DNA of 47,044 nt from a virus, in IMG/VR virus record IMGVR_UViG_3300044734_000047, positions 1 to 47,044 of that record. One strand, given 5' to 3'. The notes beneath the pieces are model-generated. The model was not told the DNA's origin and did no database searches. It was given only the letters and a program-made list of their open reading frames with translations. Both the position numbers and the translations under genes were made by a program. Positions 1 to 47,044 of this stretch are shown piece after piece; positions within the stretch are counted from its first letter, which is position 1; the number at the start of each line of letters is the position of its first letter.

Positions 1-603
1 ATGAACCCTTGCGCCGACGAGCCCGCGCTCTTCGCCTGGATCATGAAGTCGTTTGGGCGCCCGGGCCTGCCGGGGACGTTGATCGAGCTTTGTGAGCGCG
101 CCGGCCGTCGCGGGCTAGCTCTGCTATCGGAGGATGAGCGTTTTCGCCACGTGCTCGCCTGGATTTGGGATGAAACCCTCCCGACCCTGTTCGTCAGGAT
201 GCTCAACCCTTCGAAGGCGCGCGCGATTGAGGACGATCAAACGATGAGGAAGATTTTCGGTTTCGCGAAACGCGGAGGGTATGGCTCCGTTGTAGTCATA
301 AATGAAAGCGACTTCCGGGCGACAGACCCAGAGGACGCAAAACGAGCGGGCTGGCCGCAGTCGGTTTATTGCGGCGCCCTACTGGATCGCGTCCTGAACG
401 ACCTACAAGACGATGAGGATCGCCGAGACCTGCTTTGCGCGTGGGGACGTCATGGTCCGCCGCTGAGGACGTGGGCGCAGGGCCGGAAGCGTGATCCGCG
501 GGTTCGCCTGCTCCACCTTGGCTTCACAGATAAGGGGCAGCCCGCCCACCCGTGCATGCTACCTTATTCGCGACCGCTGACCGTGTTGGCGACCACCGGG
601 TGA
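1..603 (+). CDS. DUF1643 domain protein
   Basis: A 200-aa protein whose middle part carries the DUF1643 pattern: LNPSKA near residue 68, then DDQT, a GYG turn and NESDFRATDP near residues 100-108. DUF1643 proteins are small cytoplasmic proteins of unknown function, common in phages and mobile elements. The C-terminal half has a CAWG motif typical of the family. The window begins on this ATG, so the start cannot be checked against upstream sequence. It is followed by a structured repeat and the gene at 739. It could be a moron gene or the first gene past the integrase in a circular map. Confidence 0.8.
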   Translation: MNPCADEPALFAWIMKSFGRPGLPGTLIELCERAGRRGLALLSEDERFRHVLAWIWDETLPTLFVRMLNPSKARAIEDDQTMRKIFGFAKRGGYGSVVVINESDFRATDPEDAKRAGWPQSVYCGALLDRVLNDLQDDEDRRDLLCAWGRHGPPLRTWAQGRKRDPRVRLLHLGFTDKGQPAHPCMLPYSRPLTVLATTG

Positions 604-8565: not shown

Positions 8566-11052
8566 CTACGGTTCCTGTTTGCCATATTGGTTGGCCGCCA
8601 CGGCCCCTCCGGTTATTGGGAAGAGCCCCTGCCTCCGATAGAGATGGCGCCGCGATTGGAGGGTGATTTCCCCAAGAGCATTCCGGAATTCACTCGGCGA
8701 TGTGCTGAAGAGCAACGAAGACGCAGCCTCGCGCGCACTCTGTCCGGCCTTTCCCGCCCCGAACCTCAGCAAGTCCGCCCCGCGCTCGATGGCCCTGAGG
8801 CCGATGCCGACATGTCCGCCCCCGACCGCCGCCAGATCGGACCCAACGCCTCGGACTAGATTGAAATCGGAATTGGCCTGATCCTCTGCCGCGCGCGCCT
8901 GCGTCGCCGAATTTCCATGGACAGCCTGATGCGTCTCGAAGGCGGCTTGCTCATCCTCCATGGTCGCAACGAAGCGGTTGAGGTTCGCCTTGCCTCCGAA
9001 CACACGCTGAAGCACGGCCCGGCGCTGCGGATTGCCGATCAAGGCGCGCACCTTGTTTGCACCGTCCGGCGAACGCTCCATGGCGTCGGCGATGGCTGAG
9101 CGAAGGCCGAGCCCGTATTGCTCTGCCTCGGCCGGCGTCATGTTCTTGATCCGCTGGTTGATTTCGGACGCGGACTTATTGAGTGCGGCCTTGCCGTCCA
9201 TCATCGCGTCCTTAAGCTGCGCGGGGCCGGCATATTGAGCCCGAGCGTCGGCATAGGTCGGGTTGATCCTGTCCACCTCCCTGAGAAAAGCCTTTCGACT
9301 GAGGTCGATCGCGCGGCCCCGCTGATCAAGAATGAGCTTGCCGCTCGGTCCTCGTGGATAGTTGTTGAGTATTTCGTCAAAGCCCCGCTTAACCGCATCC
9401 AAAGTCCGCATGTTCGGGACAGACGAAACAATAGGATTACCCGCCTCGTCTGTCCCGGTGATCGCATATTCGGTAGCGTTGAACGGCTTCCCTTCGGCTA
9501 GCGCCTCAAGCCGCTGAACCTCCAACCCTTTCGCGAGACCTGTTTTGGTGACCGGATCATCGAGAAACTGCTGAATCCGCGGTGACCAGATCGCGCCCGG
9601 TGCGTTGGCTGAGCCGTCAGCCTGAGCCTGCCGCAATCGCCCTAGGTTCGATTGATGCGCGGCCTCGGCGGCTGTTAGGCGGCTTTGGGCGGCCTGAAGC
9701 TCATCAGCGGCCCCGCGTTGCGCCCGCAAGCCGCCGCTTGCCCCGTATACATTGTTTCCGGCGCGCGAAATCTCGGCCGCGGCTTGGGTGGAACGCCTTT
9801 GAGCAGCGGCAACCGCGCGCCGAGCGGAGGTGACTTCTCCAGAGGATACGCGAAATGCAGAGGCAAATTGCTGCTCAAGAGGTGCCACACTGCCCCCCGC
9901 CAGCGCATCTGTGTAAACTGGAGCGGCGTTAGTCTTGGCCTCGTCAATAAGCCGTGCGGATTCCGCCAATACGTCCGTCGTCGGGCCAAGGTCGCGGTTG
10001 ATGGCGTCCCTCACCCTGTCCATTTGGCCCATTTGTCGCTCTTTGGTGAAGCCCTTGGCGATGGTTCGGGCGGGGCCGGGCTGGCGGGAGACTGAGCTGC
10101 CGAGCGCACGGACGTTTTCTCCAAGGTCGGCGAGAACCGCTGGCGTACCGTTCGCTTGCGCCTCGGTAATCACCCTTCCTGCGTCATAGGGGTTGAACCC
10201 GTCGTCATGAAGGCGCTGGGCCACCAAACGCGCGCCGACTGTCTTATCCGTCCCTGTGAGCCGGGCAATCGTCGCCATGGGACCGCGGGGGATCGGTGGA
10301 GGGGCAGTCGGCATTTCCGTAGGCGCGGACGGTACGGTACGGTCCAAAGGCCTAGCTCCAAGCCCGCCTACAAGCCCGCCCACAAGCGAGGCTATGGTCT
10401 GCACCCCTCTCCCAAAACCGGCCTGCCGCGCCGCTTCGCCTGAGAGACCAGCTCCAGCTCCGGACGTTGCGGCAGTAACCGCCCTGATTGGCGCGCCCCC
10501 TCCACCGAAGGGCAGGGCGGCGGTGACGCCTCTCACTCCGGCATGAAGATAGTGCTGCCCAGACGTTTCGGGATGGCCGAAGGGAACGCTGTCGGCGAGG
10601 GCCTCGACTTGCGCCCCACCGGACATCTCGGGACCGCCTAGAAGCGACGGCGCCAGATGCGAACCAGGGTTTATGACAGAATCTACCATGTTCAAGAAGT
10701 CGGCACCGCCATGGAGGACGGCGTTTCCAACCACGGCGAGATTGTGGCCGAGGCTCGTGTCCGGCGGAGGCGGGGGAGGAGGTTTGGGCGTCACATCCCG
10801 AACGCGCGCGTCTGAGTGACCGAGATTCTCGTTCAAATGACTTTTGATCGTAAGGCCCAGCGTGCCGGCATAGTTCAGCACCTCGGTTGCGGTGACTCCC
10901 GGCTGTCGAACCTTCTCTTGGAGCATGGCGTTGCGCTGCTCGATCGGAAGTTCCGAAGGATGGGCCGGCTCGGCGATGCCGGCGTAAGGATCGGCGCCCG
11001 GCGGCGCGGCGGCTGCCACAGGTTGCGCGAAGTCAGCATAGGGATCGCCCAT
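8566..11052 (-). CDS. large internal/ejection protein (P22 gp16-type position)
   Basis: An 828-aa protein starting MGDPYADFAQPV. Two DPYA repeats open a Pro-rich N-terminus. A glycine-rich, possibly membrane-active region lies at residues 180-245. From about residue 260 onward it is helical and coiled-coil rich (RRAVAAAQRRSTQAAAEI). It is the third of three successive virion-internal-type genes, as P22 gp16 is, and presumably enters the host cell with the DNA. Assignment rests on gene order, size and composition; no enzymatic motif seen. Confidence 0.65.
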   Translation of the reverse strand: MGDPYADFAQPVAAAAPPGADPYAGIAEPAHPSELPIEQRNAMLQEKVRQPGVTATEVLNYAGTLGLTIKSHLNENLGHSDARVRDVTPKPPPPPPPDTSLGHNLAVVGNAVLHGGADFLNMVDSVINPGSHLAPSLLGGPEMSGGAQVEALADSVPFGHPETSGQHYLHAGVRGVTAALPFGGGGAPIRAVTAATSGAGAGLSGEAARQAGFGRGVQTIASLVGGLVGGLGARPLDRTVPSAPTEMPTAPPPIPRGPMATIARLTGTDKTVGARLVAQRLHDDGFNPYDAGRVITEAQANGTPAVLADLGENVRALGSSVSRQPGPARTIAKGFTKERQMGQMDRVRDAINRDLGPTTDVLAESARLIDEAKTNAAPVYTDALAGGSVAPLEQQFASAFRVSSGEVTSARRAVAAAQRRSTQAAAEISRAGNNVYGASGGLRAQRGAADELQAAQSRLTAAEAAHQSNLGRLRQAQADGSANAPGAIWSPRIQQFLDDPVTKTGLAKGLEVQRLEALAEGKPFNATEYAITGTDEAGNPIVSSVPNMRTLDAVKRGFDEILNNYPRGPSGKLILDQRGRAIDLSRKAFLREVDRINPTYADARAQYAGPAQLKDAMMDGKAALNKSASEINQRIKNMTPAEAEQYGLGLRSAIADAMERSPDGANKVRALIGNPQRRAVLQRVFGGKANLNRFVATMEDEQAAFETHQAVHGNSATQARAAEDQANSDFNLVRGVGSDLAAVGGGHVGIGLRAIERGADLLRFGAGKAGQSAREAASSLLFSTSPSEFRNALGEITLQSRRHLYRRQGLFPITGGAVAANQYGKQEP

Positions 11053-20938: not shown

Positions 20939-21853
20939 CTACGCTCCCGGCGAGCCGTAGAGCGCGCGCGGATCGGTCCAGCCCGTGCTGTAGCGCTCGT
21001 AGCCCTTGTACTTGAGGTTGGAGGTGTCGAAATCGCCGTCCTGCGCGAAGGCGGCTTCCTCGCGCTGGAACAGCTTCAACCCCTCCGGCGCATTGGTGCG
21101 GATGAAGAAGGCATCCGTGTCGGTCAGGTAGTGGTTGACCTTCGCGCCGTCCGGGAAGATGCCCAGCGCCTTCATCGCATTGATCGCGTTGTTGGCGGTG
21201 TCGTTCTGACCAGTTGACTTGAGGATGCGGGTCGCCTCGAACGCGAGGCCGGGCGGGACGATCAGCGACTTGGGCATCAGCGCTATCCTCATGCCGCGGC
21301 TGTTCGTCGCCTGCATGATCTGGACCGCTATATCCTCGAGCGCCGCCTCCGAAATGTCGGACGCGGTGGTCAGCGTGTTCGACCAATTCCCCGACAGCGA
21401 GGGGTGATCGGTGGCCAGCAGAGCCTTGCCATCGGCGCCGGTGTAGGACGAGGAGAAGGCGCGGTTGTAGATGTTGGCGACCACGTTCTCCTTGGTCTGC
21501 CGGAACGAGAAGCCGAGGCTGCCCGTCCGCTGCATCCCGAGCTTCTCGTACTGGTCGTCGACGATCGCTTCATGGGTGATGATGAAGCCCAGCGCGTAGG
21601 CGATGTGGGTGTAGCGGGCCGTAACCCCCTGGCCGGCGGTGTCGTAGACGACCGAAGCGCCCTGCGTCTTGATCGGAGCCATGCCGAAGCCGGTCATCTC
21701 CTGATCTTCCTCGTAGGCCTTGTCCGAATCGAACACGTCGACGAGGTCAGGATATTCCTTCGGATGCTCGGTGTAGGAGGCGCCCCAGCGGGCGTTGAGG
21801 CCGGGCCACAGGAGCTTGGCGATCTGGCCGGTTGTGATGATTGGTGCGCTCAT
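20939..21853 (-). CDS. major capsid (coat) protein
   Basis: A 304-aa protein that resembles Mu gpT-type HK97-fold coat proteins. The marks are ARWGASYTEHPKEYPDLVDVF at the start, YEKLGMQRTGSLGFSFRQTKE (the spine helix) in the middle, and LLATDHPSLSGNWSN followed by RGMRIALMPKSLIVPPGLAFEA (P-domain). Its place downstream of portal, protease-like gene and scaffold supports this. About 415 copies would form a T=7 shell; that number is known for related phages, not read from this sequence. Confidence 0.82.
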   Translation of the reverse strand: MSAPIITTGQIAKLLWPGLNARWGASYTEHPKEYPDLVDVFDSDKAYEEDQEMTGFGMAPIKTQGASVVYDTAGQGVTARYTHIAYALGFIITHEAIVDDQYEKLGMQRTGSLGFSFRQTKENVVANIYNRAFSSSYTGADGKALLATDHPSLSGNWSNTLTTASDISEAALEDIAVQIMQATNSRGMRIALMPKSLIVPPGLAFEATRILKSTGQNDTANNAINAMKALGIFPDGAKVNHYLTDTDAFFIRTNAPEGLKLFQREEAAFAQDGDFDTSNLKYKGYERYSTGWTDPRALYGSPGA

Positions 21854-23842: not shown

Positions 23843-23950
23843 CTATTCCTCGCTCTTTGTCTTGGTGGGAATAGCGGCCAAAGCCGGCCGCAATAGCGAT
23901 GTCCCGGCCAGCAAGCGGGCCTTGGCGCGGGAGAAGATGGGGACCTTCAC
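23843..23950 (-). CDS. 35-aa basic micro-protein
   Basis: A tiny frame from GTG 23950 in a GTGA overlap with the co-chaperonin stop, ending two bases before the scaffold ATG. It begins VKVPIFSRAKARLLAG. It could alternatively be only a translated spacer that couples the scaffold to the co-chaperonin gene. No known family. Confidence 0.45.
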   Translation of the reverse strand: MKVPIFSRAKARLLAGTSLLRPALAAIPTKTKSEE

Positions 23951-24273
23951 GCTCCCTCCTCCAGACGCGCGATCACGTCTTCGTCGTTCATGATGCGATA
24001 GTCCTCGCCATCGGCGCCCTTGAAGAGGATGCCGCCATATTTTGCGATCATGATGCGGTCGCCGGGCTGAGGGCGGGTGAATTGAGGTGAGCGGGCCGCA
24101 GCTTCCTCCCATGCGTTTTCACCATGGGCGATCAGCGTCCCTTTGACGGTCGCGTATTTCTCGCGTTCTTTCGTCTCGTCGGGAATGATGATGCCGCCCT
24201 TGGTCCTGGTCTCGACAGGGTCGGGACGAACGACAACGCGAAGATCGAGGGGGGTGACGCCGGAGGTGTTCAT
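23947..24273 (-). CDS. GroES-like co-chaperonin (Cpn10 family)
   Basis: A 108-aa protein. Residues 9-40 (LDLRVVVRPDPVETRTKGGI then IIPDETKEREKYATVKG) match the Cpn10 core, with the mobile loop TKGGIIIP that contacts GroEL. PQPGDRIMIAKYGGILFKGADGEDYRIMNDEDVIARL matches the C-terminal half: GDxVxxxKY.G and the final DI.A motif. Phages such as T4 (gp31) use an own GroES to fold the coat. Lying between protease-like and scaffold genes, it probably assists coat folding with host GroEL. Confidence 0.85.
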   Translation of the reverse strand: MNTSGVTPLDLRVVVRPDPVETRTKGGIIIPDETKEREKYATVKGTLIAHGENAWEEAAARSPQFTRPQPGDRIMIAKYGGILFKGADGEDYRIMNDEDVIARLEEGA

Positions 24274-24713
24274 GCCACGGCCTCCAGCTTGTGCTCCAAG
24301 TGGAGGACGGTGATTTGGCCACCCGTGTGTGTGTCACGCCGAGCCGCAATCGCGAGCGCATCAGAGGCGTCGGCACCTGCGTCCATCGCTCCGATGGCGA
24401 ACGCCCTGCCGCTTCCCGTGGCAGTCGGCACGTCTTCTGGAACGGCGCGGCACTCAGCATCGTAGCAAAGGCACGTCCCGTCCGTTTGCAGGACAAGGGC
24501 CTCGAAATTGTTGGTGTCGATCTTTGGCTTCTCGCCGCCCTTTTCCAGCCATTCGACGAATGGCTCAATATGGAAAGCAGAGCCCGAAACTCCGACGATG
24601 CGGCCATCACTCAGGGGCCGCACTTTGACGAACCTTCTGCCAAAGATCGCATCGCCGCACGTCGCCAGCCCGTCTCCCGCCATGCTCTTCCCGTCACAGG
24701 CTATCGTCGTCAT
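24270..24713 (-). CDS. HslV-like Ntn-hydrolase, candidate head maturation peptidase
   Basis: A 147-aa protein close to HslV (about 175 aa). Met is followed by TTIA, so removal of Met exposes the catalytic Thr. AGDGLAT (residues 12-18) holds the Asp of the GDG motif (D14), and K30 aligns with the HslV catalytic Lys. The pattern GSGRAFAIGAMDAG near residue 100 and a final TGGQITVLHLE also fit. No HslU partner is encoded here. The gene lies exactly where a prohead protease is expected, so cleavage of scaffold or coat is a plausible role. It is translationally coupled to the co-chaperonin by ATGA. Confidence 0.82.
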   Translation of the reverse strand: MTTIACDGKSMAGDGLATCGDAIFGRRFVKVRPLSDGRIVGVSGSAFHIEPFVEWLEKGGEKPKIDTNNFEALVLQTDGTCLCYDAECRAVPEDVPTATGSGRAFAIGAMDAGADASDALAIAARRDTHTGGQITVLHLEHKLEAVA

Positions 24714-24933
24714 CGCTCACCTCGATCCCGTATTGCTCTGCGACATCATGCCAGCTGATCCCCGCCAGTTGGCCCAACAGGACCGCTTGGCCCTGCTCCT
24801 CCGGCGACATCGGGGCCCCCCGGGCCCATGCCGCCATCAGGTCCGATTGGCGGTCCTTGAGGAACTGGAGGTATTCCCTGGTCAGAGGGTTGTCCTTCCA
24901 CGCCAGTAACCCCTCCTCCGTTTTGATTGTCAT
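24694..24933 (-). CDS. hypothetical protein overlapping portal 3' end
   Basis: A 79-aa soluble, helical protein (NPLTREYLQFLKDRQSDLM, EEQGQAVLLGQLAGISWHDV) ending in an acidic DDDDSL tail. It resembles small proteins often found next to P22-like portal genes. It overlaps the portal gene by 188 bases in another frame and the next gene by 20. Both frames look like genuine protein, so this is probably a dual-coding region. Function unknown. Confidence 0.65.
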   Translation of the reverse strand: MTIKTEEGLLAWKDNPLTREYLQFLKDRQSDLMAAWARGAPMSPEEQGQAVLLGQLAGISWHDVAEQYGIEVSDDDDSL

Positions 24934-26938
24934 GACTCAGATCGCTCCCTGTCTCTGTGGCGGCTTCGGCGAGGGCGGCGGCGTCCTGCCGAAGCCCAAC
25001 CTCGGCGAGGGCTGCCGCTGCGGCTGCTAGATCGTTGGCCGCGGCCGCGTCTTGTGCCCGCACCTTGGCGGCGCCTTCGACCTTTGCGCGCTGCTCCTTC
25101 ATGCCTTCGAGCAGAACTTTCGGATCGGGCGCCGGCGGAGGCACGGTCAGCAGCGTTTTGATGTCGCGCTCGCCCAATGCCTCGAACACGCGCTTGCGGA
25201 TTTCCTGCTGGTTAACGAGGATGTCGCCGTTGAAGCCCATCAGGGTCTGCGCACGCGCCATCTTCTGCATGTCGGAGGCCATTTGCGGGTCGGAGACCGG
25301 GATGACGTCCAGATCCTCGTCCTGATAATCCTCGCGGCCGATCTTCTGCGGCTGTTGCGGCTGCGGCTGGCCGTCCGGCCCCTGCTGCGGAGCCTGGTCG
25401 TTGAGCTGGAAATACTCCTCCTCGTCCAGATAGTCGCGATTCAGGCGGCGAAGGATGCGCAGCTCCTGCCCGAAAGCCCGATGGATACGCTTGAAGATGG
25501 CGGTCATGACCTTGTGGCCCTGCTCGATCAGGGCAAGCGTGGTCGTCGCGGGTTGGTTCGCTGTCCCCTCGCCGGTCATCACGTCTTGAACGGAGGTGAT
25601 TTCCTTCGCGGCGCCGATCAGCATCTCGAGCAACTGGAACAGGACCGACGAGGGGCCCGGCGTGTTGAACGGCACGATGTTGTCCTTGAGCGTGCCGCCG
25701 GTCACGTCGACCCGTTTCCACTCGCCAAGGCGAATTCTCATCTCGCCGCCCTTGATGTTCACCCCCGAGCCGAGGAACCCGCCCTGGGCGTTTTGAAGGG
25801 CGCCGGCATCGAGCATCTGGTTGAGCGTCGTGTCGATCGTAGCGGTGATGTCCTCCAGCAACGCCCCGAAGCCGATGTCGTAGAACGAGCCGTCCGGAGC
25901 CGGGATGAAGCCGTATTTGGTGAAATACTGGCGGCGCTCGATCCGGACTACCTTCTCCGCCAGGTGGGCGTTCGACTCGTCCAGCTTTGACAGCTTGAGC
26001 GTCTTGCCTGCTGCGGAGACCGTCACCTCGTCCGCGCCGAAGCATGGCACGATCCGGGCCACTTCGCCCTGTTTGGTCGTGGTGACGACATAAGGCTCCG
26101 GATAGCCATCACCGTCCAGGTCCATCGTCCTGTGCTGCTCGTAGAACTCGACCAGCGCGTCCTCGTCCTCCGCGTCGTCGTTGTCGTGATCGATGCGAAC
26201 CCTGAGCCAAAGGCCGGCGGCGATCTTCTCTTGCACCTCGTAGGGGTAATATCGGAGGACGTGGGTGTAGCGAGGGGCTGTCTCCAGAGACTTGGCCCAG
26301 TAGTTGATGATGAAGTCCTCGCCGGACACCATTTCCGACGTATTCGCGTTGGCGATGCTGTCGTAATAGGTCTTGCGGAAGACGCAGCCTGTGATCGGCA
26401 GCATGAGCAGGAGGCGGTCGGTCTCCTCTTCCCATCCCGGCATCCGGAACAGGAGCTGCCATGTCATGTGTTGGCCGATGCGCTCGGCTCGCGCCTGCTT
26501 CTGCCCGTCCGGATCAGGACCAAGAACACGGCCTTTGACGAGATTCGAGCCGTCGACGATCGCCGGATAGGCGCGAGCCTGGAATTGAACCGCAGCCGTG
26601 GTCAGCAGCGGGAATTTGACGTTGGAGGCGCGGGGCCAAGGGAAATTCTTCGTCGCCCGGACCTGCATCGCCATGTCGAGCCATTTTCGATAGCGGCCGA
26701 GCCAATCGCCATCCTCCCCGCCCTCGCCATTGCCCTTGCCACGCGACCGCTCATCTATTTCGACGTCACGGATGACATGGCTGCCGATCTTCGTGACCTC
26801 ATTGTCGTCCAAGTGCTCGGCGAGGTTGATGCTGGGCTGGAGGATTTCGGAGAGGGTCAGGTTCACACGGGCGTCGGGCGCCAGTTCAGCGGCACCCACT
26901 TCGGCCATGTCGGCGAGACGGTTTGCTGCGCCGGCCAT
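24746..26938 (-). CDS. portal protein, P22 gp1-like
   Basis: A 730-aa protein, nearly the length of P22 gp1 (725 aa). Family marks include YRKWLDMAMQVRATKNFPWP and FRMPGWEEETDRLLLMLPITGCVFRKTYYD in the first third, then YFTKYGFIPAPDGSFYDIGFG and LNQMLDAGALQNAQGG in the wing/stem. The C-terminus is Gly/Pro-rich and encoded in two frames together with the 79-aa gene. A dodecamer of it forms the DNA entry vertex and docks terminase. Start 26938 overlaps the upstream stop by one base; a longer frame exists but is not needed. Confidence 0.88.
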   Translation of the reverse strand: MAGAANRLADMAEVGAAELAPDARVNLTLSEILQPSINLAEHLDDNEVTKIGSHVIRDVEIDERSRGKGNGEGGEDGDWLGRYRKWLDMAMQVRATKNFPWPRASNVKFPLLTTAAVQFQARAYPAIVDGSNLVKGRVLGPDPDGQKQARAERIGQHMTWQLLFRMPGWEEETDRLLLMLPITGCVFRKTYYDSIANANTSEMVSGEDFIINYWAKSLETAPRYTHVLRYYPYEVQEKIAAGLWLRVRIDHDNDDAEDEDALVEFYEQHRTMDLDGDGYPEPYVVTTTKQGEVARIVPCFGADEVTVSAAGKTLKLSKLDESNAHLAEKVVRIERRQYFTKYGFIPAPDGSFYDIGFGALLEDITATIDTTLNQMLDAGALQNAQGGFLGSGVNIKGGEMRIRLGEWKRVDVTGGTLKDNIVPFNTPGPSSVLFQLLEMLIGAAKEITSVQDVMTGEGTANQPATTTLALIEQGHKVMTAIFKRIHRAFGQELRILRRLNRDYLDEEEYFQLNDQAPQQGPDGQPQPQQPQKIGREDYQDEDLDVIPVSDPQMASDMQKMARAQTLMGFNGDILVNQQEIRKRVFEALGERDIKTLLTVPPPAPDPKVLLEGMKEQRAKVEGAAKVRAQDAAAANDLAAAAAALAEVGLRQDAAALAEAATETGSDLSHDNQNGGGVTGVEGQPSDQGIPPVPQGPPIGPDGGMGPGGPDVAGGAGPSGPVGPTGGDQLA

Positions 26939-27213
26939 CAGAGCACAACCCCACGAGAGCGAAGCGCCCGCCTCATCGTGGGCGAATGGTCCACCTGCTC
27001 TTCCGCCGTGATTCCGCATTGCCGGCAGATCGACCACAAGCCAAAATCATGACCGCCGAAAAACCGACACCACCGGTCCTTAATTTCGTACCGCAGCCAA
27101 ACATAAGCCTTCGCCCATGCCGCAGTTGACAGGCGCTGTTTCCGGTTACACGGGAAGCGCCCGGTCCATGCCGAAGACCAAAAATGGTTGGGGAGATATT
27201 CGCCTTCGCGCAT
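26938..27213 (-). CDS. hypothetical protein between terminase and portal
   Basis: A 91-aa basic, Trp-rich protein (MREGEYLPNHFWSSAWTGRF). It carries WSICRQCG near residue 63, a single CxxC pair that may bind zinc with His residues nearby. It starts in a TGATG overlap with the terminase stop and ends in the same way at the portal start. Possibly a packaging accessory; no family recognised. Confidence 0.6.
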   Translation of the reverse strand: MREGEYLPNHFWSSAWTGRFPCNRKQRLSTAAWAKAYVWLRYEIKDRWCRFFGGHDFGLWSICRQCGITAEEQVDHSPTMRRALRSRGVVL

Positions 27214-28697
27214 CAATACCCCCCAATGTCCGAACGGCCGTCGTCGCCATATTCGTCCTCGTCGATCTCTTCCTGTGTCGGCAGGACCGGAACGGCGAAG
27301 GTCAACGCCAAGCCGTCACCATCATCGGGCGAGGCAAGACCGCGCGCCTTCATGTGCTCCTTCTTTTCGAGCTGGATTTCGTCGCGGGCGTTGAAGCTAT
27401 ATTCGACGCCGGTCAGGTCGTCGGCCAACTCTTGGTCGTCGGGGATTGCGCCGCCGATCATCCATTCGCGCATGATCGCCCACATCTCGGCGCGGCGGTT
27501 CGCGACCTTTGTCCATTCGCCGAGCTTCACTGCACCTAGCGGCTTAGAGCCGAACTGCACGCCGACACTCGGCACGTTCATCTGTCTCAGCCGGTCGACG
27601 ACACCCGCCCCAATGCCGCCCTCATCGACACAGACGAGCGCTGCCTTGTAGATCCGCTGCGCCTCTGCGGCCTTCGCGGCGAGCTGCATCGTATCGAGGC
27701 CGTGGAACTTTAGCGGCTTGATCGATCGCGCGTCCCTGCCACGGCGGAAGTAGATGGTCGAATGATCATCGCCGAACCGCGCCACATCGACGCCGATGAC
27801 GAGTGGCTCGGTAAGCTCGACCTTGACCTCACGCTTGCGGGCGGCCTCGACAACGTCCGTTGCCATGAACTGCAGCGACGAGGTCGATGGGAACATGCCG
27901 CGGACGCGCACCTTCACGATGTCGCTGTCCTCGCCGTAGGTCGTTACGAGCTCGTCAAGATAGGCCTTGTTCGTGCCCTCGACCATGCGGCTGTCTATCT
28001 GGTAAGTTTTCCACAGGCCGCGATGCTTGCCGAAGCATTCGCGGAACCGGCCAGTGGCCTGGGTGGGATTGCCGAACGCGATCCAGATGATCTCGGTCTG
28101 CTCGTCGGTCAGCGCGCCCTCGGCGACCTCCCACACCTTGTCGTCGATCTTGGACGATTCGTCGAAGATGATGACGATGCGCTTGCCCTGATTATGCAAG
28201 CCGGCGAACGCTTCGGTGTTATGGGCGGACCAAGTGACGAGATCGGCGCGCCAGCTATCCTCGTGGCCGGGAACGACGGAAGCGAGCTTCGTTGCGGTCG
28301 ACTTGAACCAATCCGCGGTGATCGCCAGCTTCGCCCATTTCGTCAGCTCGGGGCTCGTCTTGGTCAGAAGCTGCGATTCTGTGTTCGCGGTGATGACGAT
28401 GCGGCAATCGTCACAGGTGTCGAGCGCCCATTTGCAGATCATGGAGATTTCGGCCGACTTGCCAATGCCGTGCCCCGAGGCAACGCCTATGCGCAACGGG
28501 AGGTGGCGGGTGTCCGGGTTTTCCAGATGCTCGCGAATGTCCTCCATGACGTCGCACTGCCAATCTCGGGGGCCGTCCACATCCGCTAGCGGACCTTCTC
28601 CCCATGGATAGGCGTAGAGGGCGTGGCCGAGCGGGTCGTGCGTGAAGCCGGCGATGTCGTTCGCCAGCATCCTGAGTGTGTCAGGCTTAGTCGCCAT
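27213..28697 (-). CDS. terminase large subunit
   Basis: A 494-aa packaging motor. The ATPase domain has the Walker A-like GVASGHGIGKS (residues 70-80), Walker B IVIIFDESS (about 173-181) and coupling motif FGNPTQ. The nuclease domain has GVDVARFGDD (about 293-302), CVDEGGIGAGVVDRL and DDGDGLALTF, holding the acidic metal ligands. It translocates DNA into the procapsid and cuts it. It overlaps the putative small subunit gene by 11 bases. Confidence 0.93.
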   Translation of the reverse strand: MATKPDTLRMLANDIAGFTHDPLGHALYAYPWGEGPLADVDGPRDWQCDVMEDIREHLENPDTRHLPLRIGVASGHGIGKSAEISMICKWALDTCDDCRIVITANTESQLLTKTSPELTKWAKLAITADWFKSTATKLASVVPGHEDSWRADLVTWSAHNTEAFAGLHNQGKRIVIIFDESSKIDDKVWEVAEGALTDEQTEIIWIAFGNPTQATGRFRECFGKHRGLWKTYQIDSRMVEGTNKAYLDELVTTYGEDSDIVKVRVRGMFPSTSSLQFMATDVVEAARKREVKVELTEPLVIGVDVARFGDDHSTIYFRRGRDARSIKPLKFHGLDTMQLAAKAAEAQRIYKAALVCVDEGGIGAGVVDRLRQMNVPSVGVQFGSKPLGAVKLGEWTKVANRRAEMWAIMREWMIGGAIPDDQELADDLTGVEYSFNARDEIQLEKKEHMKARGLASPDDGDGLALTFAVPVLPTQEEIDEDEYGDDGRSDIGGY

Positions 28698-39379: not shown

Positions 39380-39676
39380 ATGGACAAGAACATTCTCGCC
39401 GCTCTGGACGTAGCCGGGGAAGCTTTGAAGGCGCTCGGCGAGGAATCCGTTGTCGCCAGCTTCCATGCGGCTGGGGGCTATTTCACGGGCGACCGCTACG
39501 GCGTCACCCTCACTCTCGCCGGCCTCGTCGGTGGCGTTCACGGCTCAGGCAGTTCGCTCAGCGAGGCGTTCCAGGTCGCGCTCAATCGTCGCGAAATCGA
39601 GGCAATCCGCCTTCGCGTTGAAGCACAAGTCCGCGCCGAAGTCGAGCAGCGGATGCAGCGCCAAGAGGCCGCGTAA
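39380..39676 (+). CDS. hypothetical early protein
   Basis: A 98-aa protein with a first domain (MDKNILAALDVAGEALKALG, GVTLTLAGLVGGVHGSG) and a charged helix at the C-terminus (RREIEAIRLRVEAQVRAEVE). It is likely an oligomeric DNA-metabolism accessory, judged from the recombination genes that follow. A GAAAGGA box precedes the ATG. Confidence 0.55.
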   Translation: MDKNILAALDVAGEALKALGEESVVASFHAAGGYFTGDRYGVTLTLAGLVGGVHGSGSSLSEAFQVALNRREIEAIRLRVEAQVRAEVEQRMQRQEAA

Positions 39677-39891
39677 TGGCGGACGACGGGTTCAGGGAAG
39701 TGGCTGGCGTTCGCTGTTCGACCGAAAAGGGTTGGACGACGATAATTGTCCACGAAGCCTACGGGGATCGAATTTCGCTCGATGCGAATTACCACGAGCG
39801 TTTCATGACGCCCCCACAGGCACGGCATTTGGCTGGCCGTCTCTATCGTCTAGCCCGTCGCATCGACAAGCGCGCGGAGGGGAGCGCGTGA
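39676..39891 (+). CDS. small hypothetical protein
   Basis: A 71-aa protein (MADDGFREVAGVRCSTEKGW) with beta strands followed by a basic helix (QARHLAGRLYRLARRID). Coupled to the Gp157-like gene by a one-base overlap. Unknown function. Confidence 0.55.
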   Translation: MADDGFREVAGVRCSTEKGWTTIIVHEAYGDRISLDANYHERFMTPPQARHLAGRLYRLARRIDKRAEGSA

Positions 39892-40388
39892 TGGGCGTTC
39901 GTATTGACCTAACCAAGATCCAGGTCAGCGCCGTCGCGACGATGTTGCGCGACGTGCTTACCGAGGACGAGCGCGCCTACGTCGACACCTTGGAAGGCGA
40001 GACGAACCTGTTTGAGGCCGTGCGCCTGCTCCTCGACAGGATCGAGGAGGACGACGGCGTTCAGAAGGAACTCGCCGAGCAAATCGACGCCCGCCGCTGC
40101 CGCAAGGACCGCGCCGGCGAGCGTGTGAAGCACAACCGGGAAGCGATCATGGCGCTGATCCAATGCGCCGGGCTCGACAAGCTCACCCTCCCCGAAGCCA
40201 CGCTATCCGTCCGCGCGGTGCCGCCGAAACCCATCGTCAATGACGAGACGGAAGTGCCGGACTCGCTCTGCAAAATCAAGAGATCGCCCGACATGGCAGC
40301 AATTAGGGCCGAGGTGGAATCCGGTCGCGCCGTGCCGGGCGTCACCCTCGACAACGGCGGAACCTCTTTGACCGTGAGGCGCAAATGA
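39891..40388 (+). CDS. Siphovirus Gp157-like protein
   Basis: A 165-aa protein with the layout of Sipho_Gp157: a helical N-terminal half (LEGETNLFEAVRLLLDRIEE, KELAEQIDARRCRKDRAGER) and a beta C-terminal half (LPEATLSVRAVPPKPIVNDE, VPDSLCKIKRSPDMAAIRAE, VPGVTLDNGGTSLTVR). Family members lie beside single-strand annealing proteins, as here, and are thought to take part in phage recombination. Confidence 0.82.
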   Translation: MGVRIDLTKIQVSAVATMLRDVLTEDERAYVDTLEGETNLFEAVRLLLDRIEEDDGVQKELAEQIDARRCRKDRAGERVKHNREAIMALIQCAGLDKLTLPEATLSVRAVPPKPIVNDETEVPDSLCKIKRSPDMAAIRAEVESGRAVPGVTLDNGGTSLTVRRK

Positions 40389-45818: not shown

Positions 45819-46097
45819 ATGGGGGAGCGTTGTAAGACGCGCGAGGCCGCTGCGATTACGGGCCTCGACATTCGCACCTTGCAAGAGAAGGCCGCCCGGG
45901 GCGAAATACCCGGCGCGGAGAAGCCGTTCGGGCGTTGGACATTCGACGTGGCGGCGCTCCGCCGATTGAGAGGAAGACCATGCCACAGGGCATCTACTCG
46001 CGCGGCGGGATATACTGGGCGCGTTTCAAGGTCCGGGGCCATGAATATCGAGCGAGCCTACGAACTCGTTCTCTCGCAGTCGCGAAGCGGCGGTTGA
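45819..46097 (+). CDS. excisionase-like HTH protein
   Basis: A 92-aa protein. Residues 7-50 (TREAAAITGLDIRTLQEKAA then FGRWTFDVAALRRL) match the HTH_17/AlpA-type excisionase domain. It lies directly before the integrase and overlaps it by 118 bases; the part in the overlap is low in recognisable structure. It should bend DNA for excision and favour the lytic direction. Confidence 0.68.
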   Translation: MGERCKTREAAAITGLDIRTLQEKAARGEIPGAEKPFGRWTFDVAALRRLRGRPCHRASTRAAGYTGRVSRSGAMNIERAYELVLSQSRSGG

Positions 46098-47044
46098 AGG
46101 CGCTGCGCCAGCAGGTGGAAGATACCGCCTATTTCGGCGCCGCAGAGCCCGTGTCGTGGCCGACTGCCGTCGTCTCATGGGACGCGGCGATCAAACGCAC
46201 CCGTAAGCGCCCGGCGACTATGGCGCGCTATCTCGTCAGCCTAGGGCAGCTTCGGCCATGGTTGGATCCGTGCCTGGTCCAGAAGATCGACCTCGACTTG
46301 CTGCGAACGATCGTGCGGGAGCGGCGGAAGGTGGCGAGCAATGCGACGGTGCGACGCGACCTTACCGCGGTGTCCAGCGTCCTCGATCACGCCATGGACG
46401 AAGGCTGGATCGAGGAAAACCCGGCTCGCATGTTCGACCGGCGGCGGCTGAAGGAGGATCGTGAGCCCATCGTGCTGCCACAACCGGAAGCCATCGCCGC
46501 CGTTCTCGTGCTCGGTAGCCGCTTCGTGGACATGGCCGAGCTCGCCCGCGAGACGGGAATGCGGGAAGAGGAAATCGCCTCGCTCCGCCATAGCCAAGTC
46601 GACCGTGACCGCATGGCCGCCTCGCTCACCTACACCAAGGGCCGCCGCGCGCGAGAGGTGCCGCTGTCGGAAAATGCGCTGGAGATAATCGACCGGCAAC
46701 CTCAGTTCCTTCGTTCCCCGTTCGTCTTCTGGAGGGGCGCCGGCGAGCGCTTCATCAACGTCGCCTCGCAGTTTCACGCCACGGTCAAGCGTGCGGCACG
46801 AAACGCGGCACAGCCCATCGCCCGGTTCCGGTTCCACGATCTGCGGCACCTGTTCGCGGTCGAATATCTGCGCCAGCGGAAGGGCTCGCTGTACGATCTG
46901 CAGCTGATCCTCGGGCACGCATCGATCAAGACGACAGAGCAATATCTCGATCACCTGACACCGGAGGAGCAAGCTGCCGCGCGTCAGGGGGTGTCACAGA
47001 ATCCGGCACAAGATGAACGGTTCGGAGGCGAAAATGCTGGCTAA
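45980..47044 (+). CDS. tyrosine recombinase (phage integrase)
   Basis: A 354-aa enzyme. N-terminal arm-binding and core-binding parts (residues 1-165) precede the catalytic domain with R195 (TGMREEEIASL), K220 (TKGRRAREVPL), H286 and R289 (HDLRHLF), H313 (LGHASI) and the nucleophile Y322 (TEQYLDHL). ATG 45980 has a GAGGAAG box; the frame runs upstream to 45935 but that part is a shadow of the excisionase. The gene ends at the window edge, so the attachment site probably lies just outside or at the very end. No att repeat could be identified within the window. Confidence 0.92.
   Translation: MPQGIYSRGGIYWARFKVRGHEYRASLRTRSLAVAKRRLKALRQQVEDTAYFGAAEPVSWPTAVVSWDAAIKRTRKRPATMARYLVSLGQLRPWLDPCLVQKIDLDLLRTIVRERRKVASNATVRRDLTAVSSVLDHAMDEGWIEENPARMFDRRRLKEDREPIVLPQPEAIAAVLVLGSRFVDMAELARETGMREEEIASLRHSQVDRDRMAASLTYTKGRRAREVPLSENALEIIDRQPQFLRSPFVFWRGAGERFINVASQFHATVKRAARNAAQPIARFRFHDLRHLFAVEYLRQRKGSLYDLQLILGHASIKTTEQYLDHLTPEEQAAARQGVSQNPAQDERFGGENAG

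Follow-up and report, generated by a model that had tools for sequence, protein, structure and literature searches.

A constant GroES-like co-chaperonin and an optional HslV-like peptidase in the head operon of a podovirus-like phage

The head operon analysed here lies in a 47,044-base IMG/VR record of a virus of bacteria (the window, taken at its full length). Two adjacent genes of this operon encode a GroES-type co-chaperonin (P0002) and an HslV-like Ntn hydrolase (P0001) of the PPH family, a proteasome homologue that occurs in phages as well as in their hosts and was described in 2021 by Fuchs, Alva and Lupas (PMC8665760). In the explanation that we prefer, with a probability of roughly 0.7, the GroES is fixed head-folding machinery that works with the host GroEL; the PPH is an optional late peptidase that is probably active and does not depend on HslU. 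The family, the fold and the active-site conservation of the PPH, as well as the constancy of groES, are demonstrated by the comparisons below.

Table 1. Head-operon features of the window, with the key residues of P0001
Feature	Position	Strand	Basis
Terminase large subunit	27213..28697	-	family profile matches
Portal protein (SU10/P22 type)	24746..27037	-	family profiles
Small gene, 79 aa	24694..24933	-	out of frame over portal 3' end; conserved
P0001, PPH-family (HslV-like) Ntn hydrolase, 147 aa	24270..24713	-	phrog_1040, fold model, active site
P0001 key residues	Thr2/Asp14/Lys30/Gly44 and GSG 100-102		homologue alignment and HslV profile comparison
ATGA, 4-base stop/start overlap of the P0001 and P0002 genes	24270..24273	-	
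P0002, GroES/Cpn10 co-chaperonin, 108 aa	23947..24273	-	mobile-loop motif TKGGIIIP
Putative scaffold, 282 aa	22992..23840	-	position and charged composition
Major capsid protein (Phage_capsid_4 / Mu gpT-like)	20939..21853	-	family profiles

The two open reading frames were found as initially annotated, both on the minus strand and coupled by a shared ATGA (Table 1). Their placement between portal and scaffold was also upheld; however, the small 79-aa gene intervenes, and the scaffold is only putative. The latter had no family match in the Pfam and phrog profile searches, although its homologues occupy the same place in relatives, and two genes without assigned function separate it from the coat. 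The portal matched the SU10_portal profile at 6e-10 and P22_portal only at 0.0011; the coat, judged by its profiles, is outside the P22 family. Homologues of podovirus-type head-closure and ejection proteins are present as well. Searches of the 47 kb record for an HslU-type AAA+ protein (AAA_2), GroEL and an S78 prohead protease gave no match, in agreement with the earlier statement that no HslU is encoded. No near-DNA match to the window was obtained among known phages. The window also contains an integrase gene cut by the record end (45935-47044) and a gene for a Mu Gam-like protein (39450-40388), from which the phage is probably temperate.

About 188 bases of the small gene lie, in another reading frame, over the 3' end of the portal gene, and homologues of the small gene precede groES in relatives. 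The same long overlap was seen in loci L006, L007 and L011; in L004 the small gene comes after the portal and shares only 4 bases with it. The C-terminus of the portal seems to have grown over the small gene.

Structure prediction, Foldseek and profile searches agree on both the GroES-like and the HslV-like calls. P0002 matched Pfam Cpn10 at 1.6e-13 (50.9 bits, curated cut-off 21.1) and phrog_3188 GroES at 5e-14, and GroES entries of the PDB were recovered both by sequence and by fold. The GroEL-binding loop TKGGIIIP is retained, as had been noticed at first: its GGIII aligns with GGIVL in the mobile loop of E. coli GroES, and a GG-hydrophobic pattern is present in most of the 36 GroES homologues. 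T4 gp31 is also a phage-encoded GroES-type partner for the host GroEL and a structural match to P0002; however, the sequence likeness is weak (10% in the structural match), and no relation between the T4 head and the head of the window is recognisable in sequence.

Relatives of the operon were sampled through three proteins, namely GroES, PPH and the coat. groES was located between portal and scaffold in all 83 loci that carry portal, groES and scaffold. The coat sampling used the window coat and the coats of five PPH carriers, and yielded 84 further loci that have portal, scaffold and coat, a few of which are contigs already present in the earlier samples; groES was again in this position in 84 of 84. 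The idea that the GroES is placed to serve head proteins is supported. Among 82 HTVC023P-type phages, GroES counts as a core gene (PMC9599517). In HTVC023P-type and related phages (HTVC023P, CRP-901, RW), Cpn10 likewise precedes the scaffold gene; these phages differ from the window in having no PPH match. The cultured HTVC023P, HTVC027P, CRP-901, RW, Pag-Yong1 and QDWS535 and the metagenomic genome MW202785 all have groES in place, and PPH had no match in any of the seven.

P0001 matched phrog_1040 ('peptidase HslV family') with an E-value of 3e-33, and Pfam Proteasome with 0.0014, below the family cut-off. Its AlphaFold2 model, built with 52 homologues, had a pLDDT of 96.2, and HslV was the best Foldseek match (E 2e-8, TM 0.74). 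In a profile comparison with E. coli HslV, Thr2, Asp14 and Lys30 were aligned with T1, D17 and K33, and GSG with GSG, and the initial call of intact catalytic residues is supported. The initial annotation had placed Thr, Asp14 and Lys30 at HslV spacing, which is correct for Asp-Lys (16 residues in both); the Thr-Asp spacing is 12, whereas that of HslV is 16. Residues D14, K30, G44, G100 and G102 are invariant among the 52 PPH homologues, and T2 is conserved in more than 90%. The Met lies directly before the Thr, without a propeptide. Seven pairs of PPH genes had a measurable dS; dN/dS was 0.13-0.22 in six of these and 0.47 in the seventh, L029/L232. The PPH is under purifying selection.

Despite the fold, catalytic residues, Asp-Lys spacing and GSG motif shared with HslV (ClpQ), P0001 is shorter. 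The model has one helix at 46-58, a strand at 71-75 and helices at 103-111 and 116-126, and helix H2 is absent; in the profile comparison, some 28 consecutive HslV residues have no counterpart. The lack of H2 and a length of about 140 residues are the described PPH architecture (PMC8665760). P0001 belongs to phrog_1040 and combines this size and H2-less core with Thr1/Asp/Lys and an oxyanion Gly; both helix pairs with the pore-loop region, and a nearby HslU, which would mark an HslV orthologue, are absent. On the basis of its sequence and model, P0001 is thus a PPH and not an HslV orthologue. Because the missing part includes H2 and the pore-loop region, docking of a host HslU looks unlikely, and the PPH is probably HslU-independent. 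The protein is of a kind already described from Caudoviricetes, which has about 140 aa, an N-terminal Thr without propeptide, Asp/Lys and no H2 (PMC8665760, phrog_1040). It is unlike the described PPHs in being located in a late head operon and overlapping groES, a placement without mention in the literature found. Nothing was found in the literature on PPH function after 2021, or on the expression timing of the PAK_P3 PPH.

The initial annotation proposed that the two genes form a folding-and-cleavage module for coat and scaffold, and that the same pair be sought in other phages. This did not hold: groES is always in the slot and the PPH almost never. The PPH adjoins groES in 8 of the 83 loci (2 of the 76 found through GroES), and occupies the slot in 3 of the 84 coat-sampled loci, with absence calls that rest partly on contig fragments. 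Among 33 whole records, mostly of the groES lineage, nine carry a PPH, one of the nine PPHs being a fragment; one scan of genome contigs gave only four PPH loci. When 70 PPHs were placed in a tree, those adjacent to groES were scattered and did not form a clade, with at least three changes forced for PPHs before groES and three for those after it. This scatter, and the constancy of groES where no PPH accompanies it, led to the rejection of a conserved PPH-GroES module. The window PPH was nearest to those of L019, L021, L022 and L024, which have the PPH upstream of terL and lack the portal, coat or groES of this lineage in the stretch examined; these phages have a different head module, so the window PPH arrived on its own.

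Dispensability of the peptidase gene had been named beforehand as evidence against the module, and at the genome level it was found in three forms: deletion, absence and exchange. The intact groES of L124 overlaps, through the usual NTGA, a relict PPH just downstream (10297-10445), in which the first ten codons are joined out of frame to the last 36 and the middle with Asp14 and Lys30 is deleted. L233 has no PPH; its coat and that of the PPH carrier L029 share about 92% identity. The coats of L232 and L029 are 98% identical and their PPHs 47%, the PPH being the most divergent of nine head-region genes compared. Similarly, the coat of L007, which has a PPH, is 85-87% identical to those of L010 and L101, in which none was found. 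Dispensability and turnover of the PPH are thereby demonstrated as far as genome comparison reaches. In the PPH of L232 (6316-6759), Arg takes the place of the catalytic Lys30.

The patchy distribution, repeated acquisition and in-place replacement by divergent versions might also be expected of a counter-defence or host-takeover protease, which would remove a host protein or interfere with the host HslUV, for example through mixed rings. The neighbourhoods in larger phages are consistent with such an accessory or metabolic setting: the PPH lies among DNA-metabolism genes in PAK_P3, and among metabolic or hypothetical genes in Nican01, 2L372D and RHph_TM21B. However, no defence-island signal or partner was found, and the late-operon placement here is late for such a role; we regard this reading as unlikely.

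In many mid-size contigs the PPH instead adjoins portal, terminase or head-morphogenesis genes. A one-by-one scan of 25 large upstream neighbours of PPH genes, a choice that favours these gene classes, gave eight portal/connector, three terminase, one head-morphogenesis and eight other genes, and five unmatched ones. In L030, L034, L037, L052, L054, L032, L003 and L026, which have unrelated head modules, the PPH lies directly or one gene downstream of the portal/connector. The adjacency in many unrelated phages hints at a tie of the PPH to late or head functions.

A role as prohead protease, in which the PPH would enter the prohead and cut the scaffold, the coat or both, with GroES as the folding helper of the coat, would agree with the intact catalytic residues, with the location between portal and scaffold, with the negative search for an S78 protease in the record and with the recurrence of portal-adjacent PPHs in unrelated phages. 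Several observations argue against it, and it is given little probability. Phages with the same head genes usually have no PPH, L233 included, and the PPH is not co-conserved with coat and scaffold (3/84); as most close relatives lack it, it is probably not the shell-maturing enzyme. The deletion in L124 left groES and coat intact. The coats of carriers and non-carriers are all about 300-305 aa with similar N-termini, and no PPH-linked N-terminal extension that could be a propeptide was seen between the two groups. P0001 matched phrog_1040 and Proteasome only, and no known prohead protease family. Moreover, a head maturation protease is encoded beside the PPH in L054, and a phrog_458 protease, a putative head protease, just before the head protein in L030 and L037, so the PPH does not stand in for a head protease in these phages. 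In virions of phiAH14a, which carries a PPH upstream of the terminase, the proteins detected include the capsid protein, at 92% coverage, and do not include the PPH (PMC4936722); this is weak evidence, because the particles were tailless. Distribution, natural deletion, replacement in place and the coat N-termini together led us to reject the prohead-protease reading. A link of the coat N-terminal motif ITRS to the PPH looked promising in PPH-selected loci and was also rejected, as only 3 of 53 loci sampled with that coat type have a PPH.

PPH and GroES might also be one late proteostasis unit, in which the PPH would dispose of polypeptides left unfolded by GroEL/GroES. The PPH arrived independently on either side of groES, and the NTGA overlap was present in all nine adjacent pairs checked and in the relict pair. 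These repeated landings, always with a 4-base overlap, are a hint of a tie to late or head functions and are unlike a random passenger; the overlapping arrival is the one feature that keeps a functional tie of the PPH possible. However, groES occurs without PPH in about 95% of loci, and the PPH is found away from groES in the same lineage (L042, L083, L127, L154). Open reading frames resembling HNH endonucleases by eye flank groES on either side (L199, 7149-7640; L246, 6853-7404). The groES junction thus takes up other genes too, and may simply be permissive; the unit is considered quite improbable. A narrower form, in which misassembled head proteins that GroEL has released, the portal above all, are cleared or trimmed by the PPH of the late pair, would account for the landings beside groES and portal genes and for the short overlap here, and is likewise thought very unlikely. 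Least probable of all is a specific cut-or-join reaction of the N-terminal Thr instead of degradation, as in connectase: the proteasome superfamily includes a ligase (PMC8665760) and a small H2-less subunit may not form a closed barrel, but the two-helix insertion of connectase was not seen in the P0001 model.

Under the preferred explanation, the GroES-like protein is fixed equipment of the podovirus-like head operon. P0002 would cap the host GroEL through its mobile loop, and a head protein, most likely the coat, would fold in the host chaperonin, as with T4 gp31. Removal of the initiator Met of the PPH would expose the Thr, and Thr1, Asp and Lys would form a competent Ntn-hydrolase site in a probably self-assembled peptidase, perhaps a ring, without HslU. 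As an optional passenger of the late operon, acquired independently of groES, the PPH would be expressed together with groES through the 4-base overlap, presumably late. It would most likely degrade host proteins, or misfolded or interfering ones, late in infection, and would not be the enzyme responsible for head maturation.

These results correct a tempting story: the conserved head gene of the lineage is the co-chaperonin and not the protease. Cultured phages that share the head operon, such as Caulobacter phage RW, make the role of the GroES testable. Moreover, unrelated phages repeatedly carry the PPH next to portal and terminase genes, which provides a lead to the role of a widespread phage protein family.
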